Source of the DNA: Planctomycetota bacterium
Lineage (GTDB): Bacteria > Planctomycetota > Phycisphaerae > Phycisphaerales > SM1A02
Assembly: GCA_003671075.1 (NCBI GenBank)
Contig: QWPT01000024.1
Location: 1 to 39,516 of the forward strand
DNA: 39,516 nt
Direction of reading: 5' to 3'
Below the pieces are notes generated by a model. That model saw only the letters and a program-made list of their open reading frames with translations, did not search any database and was not told where the DNA came from. The position numbers were made by a program, and so were the translations under genes. The first letter of the stretch is position 1; each line of letters starts with the position of its first letter. Below, piece after piece: positions 22,244-36,515 of this stretch.

Positions 22244-23527
22244 TCAACGAACGGCGAGTGCGGTGAGCGCGGCTTCGGCGGCGAGGCGGCCTGAGCGCAT
22301 CGCGCCATTGATCGACGCGTCTTCGAGATGATCGCCGGCGATGAACACGCGCGGACCGAGGATCTCGGGAAGAAACGCGGGCATGCGCGCGGCGAGATCC
22401 GCTGGCCATTGCCGCGCAATCGCGTGGCGAATGCGCTGGACGGCGATGAGTTCCCATCCGTCGGTGGCGCCGCGACCGAACGACGGACGCAGAATCTGTG
22501 CGACGGTGCGCCGCATGTCCTGCGCCACATCGACGGCGTTGTCGGCGTTGCACGGGAGCGACGCGGCATTTGCCACGAACAGCCCGCGGCCCGCGCAGGC
22601 ATATCCCGGCGCAATCGTGCTCATGGCGGCGCCGTGGTTGAACGCGCCCATTCCCGTGCCGTTGAGCAGCAGCCAGCGCGGAAGGATCGATGGATCGGGC
22701 GTGGAGAACCAGGCGCTCAGCGTGCTGCACCAGCGGATGTCCGCCAGCGTGGGCACAAGCCGACGCAGATCGTGCGCGCCAGTGGCGAGGATGACAGCGT
22801 CGGCGTCGCGCGTCTCGCCCGACTCGAGCAGCACGCGGGTGGACTCGATGCGAGCAACGCGCGCGCGCAACCGCACCGCGTCGGCGATCGGCGCCGCGAT
22901 TTGTACGGCAATCTCACCCATGCCCTTGGCGGGAACGCAAGCGAATCCGTCGGCGAACATGCGCAGCAGAAAGTTCAAGCGCGAGGTGTCGGTGTTCAAG
23001 GAGCGATCGAAGAACACGCCGCCGAAAAAACTTCGGAAGAACGAATCGATGGTGCGTCGGGAAATTCCTGCGGATTCAAGCTGCGAAAGCGCTGTTTTTC
23101 CACTCGCTGCGCCTGGGCCATCGGCGGGTCCGCGCAGAGCGGCGAGCGCAAATGGGATCATCTTCATCGCGTCGGCGATGGGTAATGCGCCGCGCAGAAT
23201 GCCACCGATCGCGGCCATTGGTTCGCGCAACGGATGAGCGATTGCCGCGGTACGCGCGCCGTTCCAAACCAACGCTCCGGGCGGGAATGCCTTGAGGTCC
23301 AGCGCGCGCAGATCGAGAAATCGCGGCGCCTCGGGATACGCGGAAAGAAAGATCTGGAACCCGCGATCGACGGTGAATCCATCGATCGCATCACTGGCAA
23401 CGCGGCCGCCAATGCGGTCAGACGCTTCGAGAATTTCCACGCGCACGCCGCGCACCACCAGCGTTCGTGCGGCGCAGAGGCCGGCGATTCCTGCGCCAAC
23501 GATGATGATGTGACGTTCAGCGGACAT
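22244..23527 (-). CDS. FAD-dependent oxidoreductase (amine-oxidase/phytoene-desaturase-like fold)
   Basis: A 427-aa protein. The N-terminal dinucleotide motif VGAGIAGLCAARTL, then an acidic residue at the end of strand 2 (VEILEASDRIGGR), is the classic FAD-binding start of this superfamily. AVILATGAHDLRRL marks the second FAD contact, and R-V-F-I-A-G-D-H-L-E-D-A-S-I-N-G-A gives the C-terminal FAD motif (GD with small residues after). Substrate unknown; relatives oxidise amines, protoporphyrinogen or carotenes. It overlaps the upstream VanZ-like gene by 11 bp, so the two are coupled. It is far from blh and there is no evidence that ties it to retinal or carotenoid supply. Confidence 0.85.
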   Translation of the reverse strand: MSAERHIIIVGAGIAGLCAARTLVVRGVRVEILEASDRIGGRVASDAIDGFTVDRGFQIFLSAYPEAPRFLDLRALDLKAFPPGALVWNGARTAAIAHPLREPMAAIGGILRGALPIADAMKMIPFALAALRGPADGPGAASGKTALSQLESAGISRRTIDSFFRSFFGGVFFDRSLNTDTSRLNFLLRMFADGFACVPAKGMGEIAVQIAAPIADAVRLRARVARIESTRVLLESGETRDADAVILATGAHDLRRLVPTLADIRWCSTLSAWFSTPDPSILPRWLLLNGTGMGAFNHGAAMSTIAPGYACAGRGLFVANAASLPCNADNAVDVAQDMRRTVAQILRPSFGRGATDGWELIAVQRIRHAIARQWPADLAARMPAFLPEILGPRVFIAGDHLEDASINGAMRSGRLAAEAALTALAVR

Positions 23528-33683: not shown

Positions 33684-33822
33684 GGCGCGAAGCATAGTCG
33701 AGCGCGCGGCACCCGCAGGCGACGACGGATGGCGCAGAGGGAGGAGGATGGCGAGGGATTTGCGGGGCACGATGCGCGTTGTCGACTTCGTGCAGTTCGA
33801 CGCTGGATATGAGCGGCGATGA

Positions 33823-34215
33823 TTGAGGCGGGTTTTTGTTTTGCGCGGGAGGGTGGCGTGCGGACACAGTGCGCAGCTGGTCGTCGACTGCGACTTCCCC
33901 TACTACACGGCGACCGGCGGCACGCAGATCGCCTGCTCCGCGACCGACACGGGCTGCGGATTCGGCAACGGCGGCGTGCAGATCCGCTTCGCGCGTTGGC
34001 AAGCTCGTCGCCCGGATGCTCCGATGCATCGTGCTGCGTCAGCGTCTGCACGTTCGATCCCTTCTGCTGCAACTCGGCGTGGAACGCGATCTGCGCGAAC
34101 GAGGCACGCACCACCTGCTACCGCCTCGGCGACCCCAACTACGACGGCGACGGCCAGACGAACGCGGCAGACGAGCGCGGCAGACTTGGCGACGCGGCTT
34201 TCGAACTGGGGTTGA
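33823..34215 (+). pseudogene. Frameshifted remnant of a dockerin-type secreted protein
   Basis: Three protein-like pieces sit in two alternating frames. Up to about 33995, one frame gives V-V-D-C-D-F-P-Y-Y-T-A-T-G-G. From about 33996 another frame gives GCSDASCCVSVCTFDPFCC and then GDPNYDGDGQTNAAD. After a 13-bp near-duplication (gcggcagacgagc at 34164-34176, then gcggcagac) the first frame resumes with L-A-T-R-L-S-N-W-G and a stop. Removing the 13 bp restores N-A-A-D-L-A-T-R-L-S-N-W-G, a dockerin-like end. The Cys-rich and dockerin motifs match secreted proteins of this lineage. No proper start or signal peptide was found. A sequencing error is possible for the first shift. Confidence 0.7.
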
Positions 34216-34230
34216 TGTGCATGTGATCAA

Positions 34231-34278: not shown

Positions 34279-34320
34279 CGCGCCCCGCGCATGACGAATG
34301 CGCGGGGCGCGGTGCTTTTT
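34279..34320 (+). terminator. Strong rho-independent terminator upstream of the rhodopsin gene
   Basis: A 14-bp perfect stem (cgcgccccgcgcat / atgcgcggggcgcg) with a 5-nt loop (gacga) is followed within 4 bases by TTTTT on the plus strand. It should stop read-through from the pseudogene side and isolate rhodopsin-blh as its own unit. Confidence 0.9.
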
Positions 34321-34622
34321 GCGGGCGCTCCACGGAAGGGGCCCGCGAGCACCGGTCTGTCCGTCGCGGTCTCAAGCACCGTGAAGTCGTCCACCGTGAA
34401 GTCGTCGCCCCTCGCCTCGAACACGCCGGCGAGGTCGGCCGCGTCATCCCTCCGCGAAAACGCTCCAAAACGGACGATTGTTTTCGCGATTGCCAAACCT
34501 CCGAATCCATCCCCGCTTGAAACGCTAACCAAGACGCGTGCGGGGTTGTTTTCCCGTCTGAACTTTTCCGACGGACGGGCCCACGGTGGGCGATTGTCCG
34601 CACGGGCTACAGGAGATCTCTA
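34321..34622. other. Leader region before rhodopsin; no convincing gene
   Basis: About 300 bp between the terminator and the rhodopsin start. Short open frames on both strands have no family match. A 15-bp tandem duplication (caccgtgaagtcgtc) lies at 34377-34406. A promoter for rhodopsin must lie in this stretch, but no clear -35/-10 pair was found; AGGAG at 34611-34615 is the ribosome-binding site. Confidence 0.6.
34377..34406. repeat. 15-bp tandem duplication in the rhodopsin leader
   Basis: Two exact copies of caccgtgaagtcgtc follow each other about 220 bp upstream of the rhodopsin gene. Confidence 0.9.
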
Positions 34623-35426
34623 GTGACGACAATACTCGCAGAAATGTCAACGACGATGCGCGCCCTAAACGCTGGGCTGTCCATTGAAGGGGTCACGATG
34701 TACCTCTTCTGGCTCTCGACCGTGGCGATGGGCGCCGGAATGTTCTACTTCTGGCTGCAGCGCAAGACGGTCGCGACGCAGTACCAGTCGGTCATGACGG
34801 TCGCTGGAATCATCTGCGCCGTGGCGGCGTTCCACTACTGGCGCATGAGTGGCATTTACATCGAGGGCGTCGCGAGCCTCTTCGACGACAACGGCAAGCG
34901 CATCGCGGGCGCCACGATCGGCCAGTTCCCGACTGCGTACCGCTACATCGACTGGCTCATCACGGTGCCGCTCCTCGTGCTCGAGATCCCGCTGCTCCTC
35001 AACCAGGGTAAGAAGGGCGCCGGGCTCTTCCGCACGCTCGTCGTTGCAGCGCTCGTGATGCTCGTCACCGCATGGGTCGCCGAAGAGAGCCCCACCGGCG
35101 GCTCGCAGTGGTGGACCTGGTACATCGTGAGCTGCTTCGCGTGGTTCTACATCGTGTTCGTCCTCTTCACGCAGGCGACCGCTGCGATGGCTTCCTCGCC
35201 GCCGAGCATCCAGGAGAGCCTCAAGACGCTCCGCCTCTTCGTGCTCGTGGGCTGGACCATCTACCCAGTCGGCTTCCTCATGGCGCTCGCAGGTGATCAG
35301 GGCGAGAGCTGGCGCGAGATTCTTTACAACATCGCCGATGTGATCAACAAGGTGTTCTTCGGCCTCGTCTGCTACCAGGGCGTGAAGGGTCTTCAGGATT
35401 CGAAGTCCCACGCTGCACACGCGTAA
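34623..35426 (+). CDS. Proteorhodopsin-type light-driven proton pump
   Basis: A 267-aa seven-helix membrane protein that uses retinal to move protons outward and so makes proton-motive force from light. Helix C reads RYIDWLITVPLLVLE: Arg107, Asp110 (proton acceptor), Thr114 and Glu121 (proton donor) give the D-T-E motif of outward proton pumps. Helix G has NIADVINKVFFGL with counter-ion Asp239 and Schiff-base Lys243. The proteorhodopsin-type His is His71 (AAFHYWRM). Leu118 aligns with residue 105 of proteorhodopsin, where Leu/Met gives green and Gln gives blue absorption, so green is predicted. The start is a GTG with AGGAG seven bases upstream. The blh gene begins 18 bp after the stop. About 25 residues precede the first helix, with no long signal sequence. 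Confidence 0.95.
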   Translation: MTTILAEMSTTMRALNAGLSIEGVTMYLFWLSTVAMGAGMFYFWLQRKTVATQYQSVMTVAGIICAVAAFHYWRMSGIYIEGVASLFDDNGKRIAGATIGQFPTAYRYIDWLITVPLLVLEIPLLLNQGKKGAGLFRTLVVAALVMLVTAWVAEESPTGGSQWWTWYIVSCFAWFYIVFVLFTQATAAMASSPPSIQESLKTLRLFVLVGWTIYPVGFLMALAGDQGESWREILYNIADVINKVFFGLVCYQGVKGLQDSKSHAAHA

Positions 35427-35444
35427 CAGAGGGGTTTCCCTGTC

Positions 35445-36515
35445 GTGAACGCTTCCCCGTCATCCGCCGCCGCGCGCGCGACGCCTCTCGAGGTGTCACC
35501 GCCGGCGGCGGGTGCGGGGAGCGTCGTTTTTGGCCCGCGCGCGCTTCCGTGGGCGGTGCTCGCGACGGCCCTCGCGCTGGGCGCGGCGGACCCGGCGCTC
35601 ACCGCTCGCGCGGCGCCGTGGCCGTTCATCGTGGCGCTCGTCGTCTTCGGCATGCCCCATGGCGCGGCTGATTGGACCGTGGCCGCGCGGCTCGCGAATC
35701 GCAACGATCTGCGCACGCGGCTCTTCGGCTTCAGCGGATATCTCGTGCTGATGGCGCTGAGCCTCGGGCTCATCGCCTGGCAGCCGGGCGTTGCGGCGAT
35801 GCTCTTTCTTCTTCTCACAATGATCCACTTCGGCATGGCGGACGCGACCGCGCTCGGTGGCGACGACGACGGCCCGCTCGCGCGCTGGGGACTGGCGCTC
35901 GGCCGCGGGCTTCTGCTTCTTGCGACGGCGTTCGCCGCGCACCCTGCCGAGGCGTGGGCACCGTTTGCAGAAATCGGCGAGGCGTTGTCGCCGCGGGCGT
36001 CGGCTGCGTGGCGGCCGGACCTCGGGACGCTGCAACAGTGCGCGCTCGTCGGCGTGGCGGCGGGCGTGGTGCTTGCGCTTGCGAGCGTCATCGCGCGCGC
36101 ACGCAGGGGCCACGCGCGCGACGCGGCGCTCGACCTCGTCGAACACGCGATGGTCGCCGCGGTCGCGACGCTGGCCGATCCCCTCTTCGCCGTCGGCTGC
36201 TATTTCATCGGCGTGCACGCGTTTCGACACACGAGGCGGCTCGCATGCACTTCGACGATCGTCGACCCCGCAGCGACGCCGCGCGGGCGCGGTGCGGGAT
36301 TCGTGCGGCGGTTGCTGCGCGTCCACCAGCTGAGCCAACCGCTGATGTGGCCGACGGCGCTCTGCCTCGCGCCCCTCTGCTGGCTGCTCGGCGGATTTAA
36401 CGCAGGCGCGATCGCCGCCGCGAGCATCGCGTTCTACATGATCACGACGCTGCCTCATCACCTGCTCGGGCTGAAGCTGCCCAAAGCAGATATGCCTCCC
36501 GCGGCAGCAAGCTGA
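35445..36515 (+). CDS. blh: Beta-carotene 15,15'-dioxygenase of the Brp/Blh family
   Basis: Cleaves beta-carotene to two retinal molecules, supplying the rhodopsin chromophore. The 356-aa polytopic membrane protein has the family's iron-binding His blocks: GMPHGAADW (His72), I-H-F-G-M-A-D (His128), GCYFIGVHAFRHTRR (His258, His262) and TTLPHHLLGL (His338/339). Several hydrophobic segments separate them, as in known Blh proteins. The first ~30 residues are an Ala/Pro-rich extension. Start GTG 35445 follows a GAGGGG about ten bases upstream. The gene is directly downstream of rhodopsin, the usual arrangement for a self-sufficient phototrophy cassette. Beta-carotene biosynthesis genes (crtE, crtB, crtI, crtY) are not in the window and must be elsewhere. 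Confidence 0.93.
   Translation: MNASPSSAAARATPLEVSPPAAGAGSVVFGPRALPWAVLATALALGAADPALTARAAPWPFIVALVVFGMPHGAADWTVAARLANRNDLRTRLFGFSGYLVLMALSLGLIAWQPGVAAMLFLLLTMIHFGMADATALGGDDDGPLARWGLALGRGLLLLATAFAAHPAEAWAPFAEIGEALSPRASAAWRPDLGTLQQCALVGVAAGVVLALASVIARARRGHARDAALDLVEHAMVAAVATLADPLFAVGCYFIGVHAFRHTRRLACTSTIVDPAATPRGRGAGFVRRLLRVHQLSQPLMWPTALCLAPLCWLLGGFNAGAIAAASIAFYMITTLPHHLLGLKLPKADMPPAAAS

Follow-up and report, generated by a model that had tools for sequence, protein, structure and literature searches.

A rhodopsin–blh gene pair of Planctomycetota and Verrucomicrobiota in genomes without a recognizable lycopene cyclase

A draft Phycisphaerales genome carries an intact two-gene phototrophy cassette, in which a type-1 rhodopsin gene is followed directly by a gene of the Brp/Blh family. 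Rhodopsin and blh are a known gene pair, and the cassette is real, belongs to a known clade, and as a find of phototrophy is nothing unusual. The variation lies in the supply of the chromophore: the pair is kept across two phyla without a recognizable lycopene cyclase. On balance, we favor the reading that it is a mobile cassette for a green proton pump whose Blh would be fed with external beta-carotene, which would make the host a provitamin-A-dependent photoheterotroph.

Host and Distribution

The stretch of DNA analyzed here (the window) is contig C31, 39,516 bp long, of genome G000, a draft of 113 contigs and 3.35 Mb that is 97.6% complete. A preliminary description of the window had taken the host for a planctomycete, which holds: the genome is that of a lake-type planctomycete of the Phycisphaerales, and the rhodopsin is also found in a Phycisphaerales member of the same family (G267). 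Across the order, 52 of 400 sampled genomes (13%) carry a rhodopsin, and among the 15 listed members of the genus only G000 and its sister species G060 have one. Given this frequency, and since three papers from 2017–2019 already describe the clade (PMC5673642, PMC6040077, PMC6461901), the remark that rhodopsins are less explored in this lineage was overstated.

A scan of the genome collection yielded 62 loci, nearly all labeled Planctomycetota or Verrucomicrobiota, the exceptions being unlabeled or apparently mislabeled bins. Two contigs with the cassette, L118 (CAIOSS010000308.1) and L143 (CAMDMA010000001.1), bear the labels delta proteobacterium and Candidatus Kuenenia, respectively, which look wrong. 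In a rhodopsin tree of 68 rows, the check that had been proposed for this protein, the window sequence falls among 30 planctomycete and verrucomicrobial rows that form a starred set; the reference branches are long and the exact point at which Exiguobacterium rhodopsin (ESR) joins is unsure. Tree position and the best PDB match, ESR, place the protein on the Exiguobacterium-like branch of the PVC bacteria. Two earlier papers recognize a Planctomycetes–Verrucomicrobia rhodopsin branch related to Exiguobacterium (PMC5673642, PMC6040077), and a third reports one green rhodopsin from a freshwater Phycisphaerae genome (PMC6461901). The window rhodopsin is a new member of this published branch.

Other rhodopsins also occur in the order. 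Three loci (L049, L050, and L054, from G035 and G182) encode divergent rhodopsin-like proteins with altered motifs, e.g. RYMNW, and no DTE. Genomes G007 and G053 combine a xanthorhodopsin-like rhodopsin (L051, L052) with a crtI-crtB-crtY-blh cluster, a second type of phototrophy in Phycisphaerales.

The Gene Pair

The features of the cassette and its upstream region are listed in Table 1.

Table 1. Features of the rhodopsin–blh cassette and its control region (window coordinates)
Feature	Position	Strand	Basis or remark
Intrinsic terminator separating the pair from upstream genes	34279..34311	+	14-pair stem, 12 G-C, then GTGCTTTTTG
CGAATCC element (YGAATC), candidate promoter or regulator site	34502..34508	+	120 bp upstream of the start codon
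Leader hairpin GCCC-ACGGT-GGGC, candidate RNA structure or palindromic operator	34579..34591	+	covariation
Ribosome-binding site AGGAG	34611..34615	+	sequence
Type-1 rhodopsin gene with DTE motif, predicted to encode an outward proton pump absorbing green light	34623..35426	+	PF01036, motif residues, AlphaFold model
Brp/Blh beta-carotene dioxygenase gene	35445..36515	+	PF15461, TIGR03753, conserved His, adjacency to rhodopsin

The rhodopsin reading frame has a GTG start and encodes 267 amino acids, which match PF01036 with 147 bits in a Pfam profile search (cut-off 24.6). An AlphaFold model (pLDDT 85) finds Exiguobacterium rhodopsin (4hyj) as its top PDB match and also matches green proteorhodopsin (GPR); together with the profile match and the helix G Schiff-base Lys243, it identifies a seven-helix type-1 rhodopsin. 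The closest solved sequence is likewise that of the Exiguobacterium sibiricum protein (E 2e-51), followed by green proteorhodopsin. Alignment finds the acceptor/donor motif Asp110, Thr114, and Glu121, the Schiff-base Lys243, and the partner His71 all at the positions given in the preliminary description. Asp110, Thr114, Lys243, and His71 are invariant across 14 aligned clade rhodopsins, and Glu121 is nearly so.

Leu118 corresponds to the tuning site Leu105 of GPR and is of the green type. Tyr167 aligns with the antenna-binding Gly156 at the fenestration site of Salinibacter xanthorhodopsin, so that no carotenoid antenna is expected, and a xanthorhodopsin-type antenna was ruled out on this basis. 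These residues predict an outward proton pump that absorbs green light and has no carotenoid antenna. Since no member of its clade was seen among the solved structures and function is predicted, a light sensor or a pump for another ion might be considered instead; we find this hardly credible, with the DTE motif, Lys243, and His71 all intact, proton pumping in the nearest characterized relatives, and no transducer gene recognized beside the rhodopsin.

The blh frame, also with a GTG start, lies 18 bp downstream and encodes 356 amino acids. It scores 128 bits against PF15461 (Pfam, cut-off 28) and 127 bits against TIGR03753 (NCBIfam, cut-off 95), and the residues His72, His128, His258, and His262 are kept in 34 of 34 sequences, in agreement with the His blocks that had been noted earlier. 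The predicted activity is cleavage of beta-carotene. The preliminary description was thus right in seeing a proton-pump-type rhodopsin and Blh that form a single two-gene unit of a Phycisphaerales genome.

This unit is constant across the clade, with blh directly 3′ of the rhodopsin gene in all 57 loci in which the downstream side is covered. The surrounding genes mostly differ between genomes, no further conserved gene accompanies the pair in the neighborhoods of the clade loci, and its downstream neighbor is not conserved even within the genus. When the window is compared with L118 or L143, homology starts at about position 34540, just upstream of the rhodopsin gene, and the sequence before it is unrelated. 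The rhodopsin and Blh trees are broadly concordant, and both nest the freshwater Verrucomicrobiota L139–L141 among planctomycetes; the two genes have crossed between phyla together. Purifying selection acts on both, with pN/pS of 0.05–0.26 for the rhodopsin and 0.16–0.57 for Blh.

Upstream Region and Integrity of the Pair

The strong terminator reported upstream of the pair proved real, a 14-pair stem at 34279–34311 with a T-rich tail (GTGCTTTTTG). Just before it, at 33819–34226, lies a Cys-rich, dockerin-like C-terminus that is seemingly split between reading frames and may be a decayed gene. Between positions −132 and −105, YGAATC occurs in 26 of 44 Phycisphaerales clade loci, against a background of 1.5% per window, and in none of 16 Verrucomicrobiota. 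The distance of YGAATCC upstream of the rhodopsin is nearly fixed, in Phycisphaerales only; over the whole window the element is not enriched (20 found, 15 expected).

The leader hairpin shows compensatory changes between the window and its relatives and lies about 20–30 nt before the ribosome site. It reaches a covariation score of 0.332 over 23 sequences; shuffling gives 0.153 (0 of 500), and slid controls stay at or below 0.166. RNAalifold gives a weak result with almost no folding energy. The element may fold as RNA or serve as a palindromic operator. A strong ribosome-binding site is present in most Phycisphaerales relatives. A scan for sigma-70 promoters upstream of the pair gave no match, and no Rfam family reached its gathering score near the leader.

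The two genes differ in their distance from the nearest relatives. Between the window and L118 the synonymous distance is 0.034 for Blh, which is 99% identical, and 0.232 for the rhodopsin. Over 198 rhodopsin codons, and at similar synonymous distances, about 2 amino-acid-changing substitutions separate L118 from L143 and about 21 separate the window sequence. Either the window rhodopsin was exchanged or it evolved faster in its lineage; a chimeric assembly of L118 would also be possible.

This roughly tenfold excess of amino-acid changes, together with the occurrence of the pair in just two of the 15 listed genus members, could suggest that the pair in G000 is a decaying relic or lies on a contaminant contig and is not a working system. 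Such an origin is very unlikely, as the frames, the ribosome site, and all functional residues are intact, dN/dS is still well below 1, the upstream elements are conserved, and the same cassette is found in dozens of related genomes.

Carotenoid Genes

Lycopene cyclases of the CrtY/CrtL type (PF05834) and the CarR type (TIGR03462) were searched for in 52 draft clade genomes: 31 from the order and 21 more, taken as non-duplicates, of which 14 are verrucomicrobial. A profile search of the draft genome G000 gave no match to SQS_PSY (PF00494), Lycopene_cycl (PF05834), or CarR. No full-length PF05834 cyclase was present in any of the 31 genomes of the order, where only weak partial matches to the FAD domain were seen, and none was found in the 21 additional genomes; no CarR cyclase was found in the clade genomes tested. 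Two of the weak PF05834 matches in relatives were checked and belong to the geranylgeranyl-reductase family, so that they were not accepted as cyclases. A CrtY in bin L170 was discounted too, because the L170 rhodopsin is identical to that of the verrucomicrobial L169 and the bin is therefore probably mixed.

In control genomes both models detect cyclases without difficulty, as PF05834 also does in relatives. Three members of the order with a xanthorhodopsin-like rhodopsin (G007, G053, and G074) score above 170 bits with PF05834 and have crtB and crtY beside or near the rhodopsin gene, and the basal Prosthecobacter L177 has crtB-crtY.

The preliminary description had called the cassette self-contained, with rhodopsin and blh providing the pump and its retinal supply, and had set the lack of a beta-carotene pathway in advance as decisive against this. 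No such pathway is recognized in G000 (no SQS_PSY, CrtY, or CarR). In this draft, searched with PF00494, PF05834, and TIGR03462, the crtB, crtI, and crtY genes of a self-contained photosystem were not found together, the CrtI homologues being CrtN/CrtP-like only. The step is missing clade-wide, with no cyclase of the CrtY/CrtL or CarR type in the 52 genomes, which contradicts the term self-contained.

The carotenoid genes that are present point to another route. The two real CrtI homologues of G000 form a CrtN/CrtP-like pair on contig C84, next to aldehyde dehydrogenase, glycosyltransferase, and acyltransferase-like genes, a layout that corresponds to a C30 acyclic carotenoid cluster; they were accordingly rejected as a sign of a lycopene pathway. 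We assign this cluster to the C30 route by inference from the family models, its gene layout, and what is generally known of planctomycete carotenoids. The sister species G060 has two SQS_PSY genes, identified as HpnC and HpnD, with HpnE after them, i.e. the squalene route. In the 113-contig draft of G000, hpnCDE were not found, through a gap or a loss, and since these genes are also missing, gaps in the draft may exist. An FAD protein in the window (22244–23527) resembles HpnE, with a score far below the HpnE cut-off, and is therefore no clear source of the missing squalene step.

Marine relatives have a crtI-family gene in divergent orientation next to the rhodopsin gene (L161, 3483–5964; L168, 1347–3840; L159, 4342–5922), accompanied in L161 and L168, and not in L159, by a divergent squalene-synthase-type gene. 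In this small-genome lineage (L161 and L168), that gene is the sole SQS_PSY gene of the genome.

Discussion

In the mechanism that we propose, retinal would be bound on Lys243 of the rhodopsin. On illumination, the Schiff-base proton would pass to Asp110, tuned by His71, Glu121 would reprotonate the Schiff base, and protons would leave the cell. Blh would split each beta-carotene into two retinal molecules. Carotenoids of the host lineage are probably C30 products of the squalene route, not beta-carotene, so that Blh is most likely supplied from outside; beta-carotene or another beta-ring carotenoid would be acquired from algae, cyanobacteria, or other bacteria. Because Blh and the rhodopsin are under purifying selection and a beta-carotene source is not recognizable, imported beta-carotene is the probable substrate of Blh. 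Animals likewise obtain beta-carotene from outside; we know of no carotenoid importer. Escherichia coli carrying a Blh homologue from the gut turned pigmented on added beta-carotene (PMC4110020).

Retinal might instead be made de novo through an unrecognized phytoene synthase and lycopene cyclase (CruA-like, novel, or a relaxed HpnD/CrtN pair acting on C40 substrates), in which case the cassette would be self-sufficient. In Aurantimicrobium minutum, retinal is produced with no known gene for the cleavage (PMC7734400), a precedent by which missing known genes do not equal missing retinal synthesis; HpnD-like proteins also reach appreciable scores with the CrtB model, and the squalene-synthase-type and crtI-family genes of L161 and L168 adjoin the rhodopsin gene. 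We nevertheless regard this reading as unlikely, though worth keeping in mind, as models that detect the controls readily find nothing in 52 clade genomes, the synthases match squalene-route models best, and no extra conserved gene travels with the pair. The same gene linkage in L161 and L168, with only the crtI-family gene in L159, would fit a third reading, in which Blh cleaves an acyclic C30 carotenoid made by the cell itself, the CrtN/CrtP product, and the rhodopsin carries a chromophore that lacks a ring and is not retinal, with no need for beta-carotene; this we consider far-fetched.

What the data set adds is that blh is the rhodopsin's only constant companion and that about 50 genomes of two phyla show no recognizable lycopene cyclase. 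If supply from outside is the true reading, a large group of aquatic bacteria needs scavenged provitamin A for its use of light; phototrophy would be tied to algae and cyanobacteria, and it would be explained how the trait can jump between lineages as two genes only. The missing beta-carotene step gives a clear and directly testable prediction.

We found no description of a rhodopsin–blh pair kept in two phyla without a recognizable lycopene cyclase in the open literature, which leaves most subscription journals outside. The closest known systems are those of the PVC rhodopsin branch (Cabello-Yeves 2017, PMC5673642; Haro-Moreno 2018, PMC6040077; Andrei 2019, PMC6461901), whose accessible text agrees with our findings in the relationship to Exiguobacterium, the host phyla, and the green-type tuning residue. 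That text concerns the rhodopsin only, and neither the constant pairing with blh nor the absence of beta-carotene synthesis was found in it. Exiguobacterium sibiricum rhodopsin, closest in both solved sequence and fold at about 38% identity, has Lys at the donor position where the window protein has the Glu of DTE, and the B–C region of the window protein is longer. One clade rhodopsin, L146 (G065), also has Lys for Glu at the donor site.

The proteorhodopsin photosystem crtE-crtI-crtB-crtY-blh, including that of the verrucomicrobial PR-1 (PMC10284914), resembles the window in the adjacency of rhodopsin and blh and in light-driven proton pumping, which is predicted here. In contrast, the window cassette comes without crtE, crtB, crtI, and crtY, and no crtY-type gene was found elsewhere in G000. 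Dependence on outside retinal has been proposed for bacteria without blh, namely Luna-1 (PMC12422013) and Saccharibacteria (PMC9296517). The window clade would share with these a supply of the chromophore from other organisms; whereas they lack blh and would need retinal itself, the window clade keeps blh, and it is the substrate that is missing.
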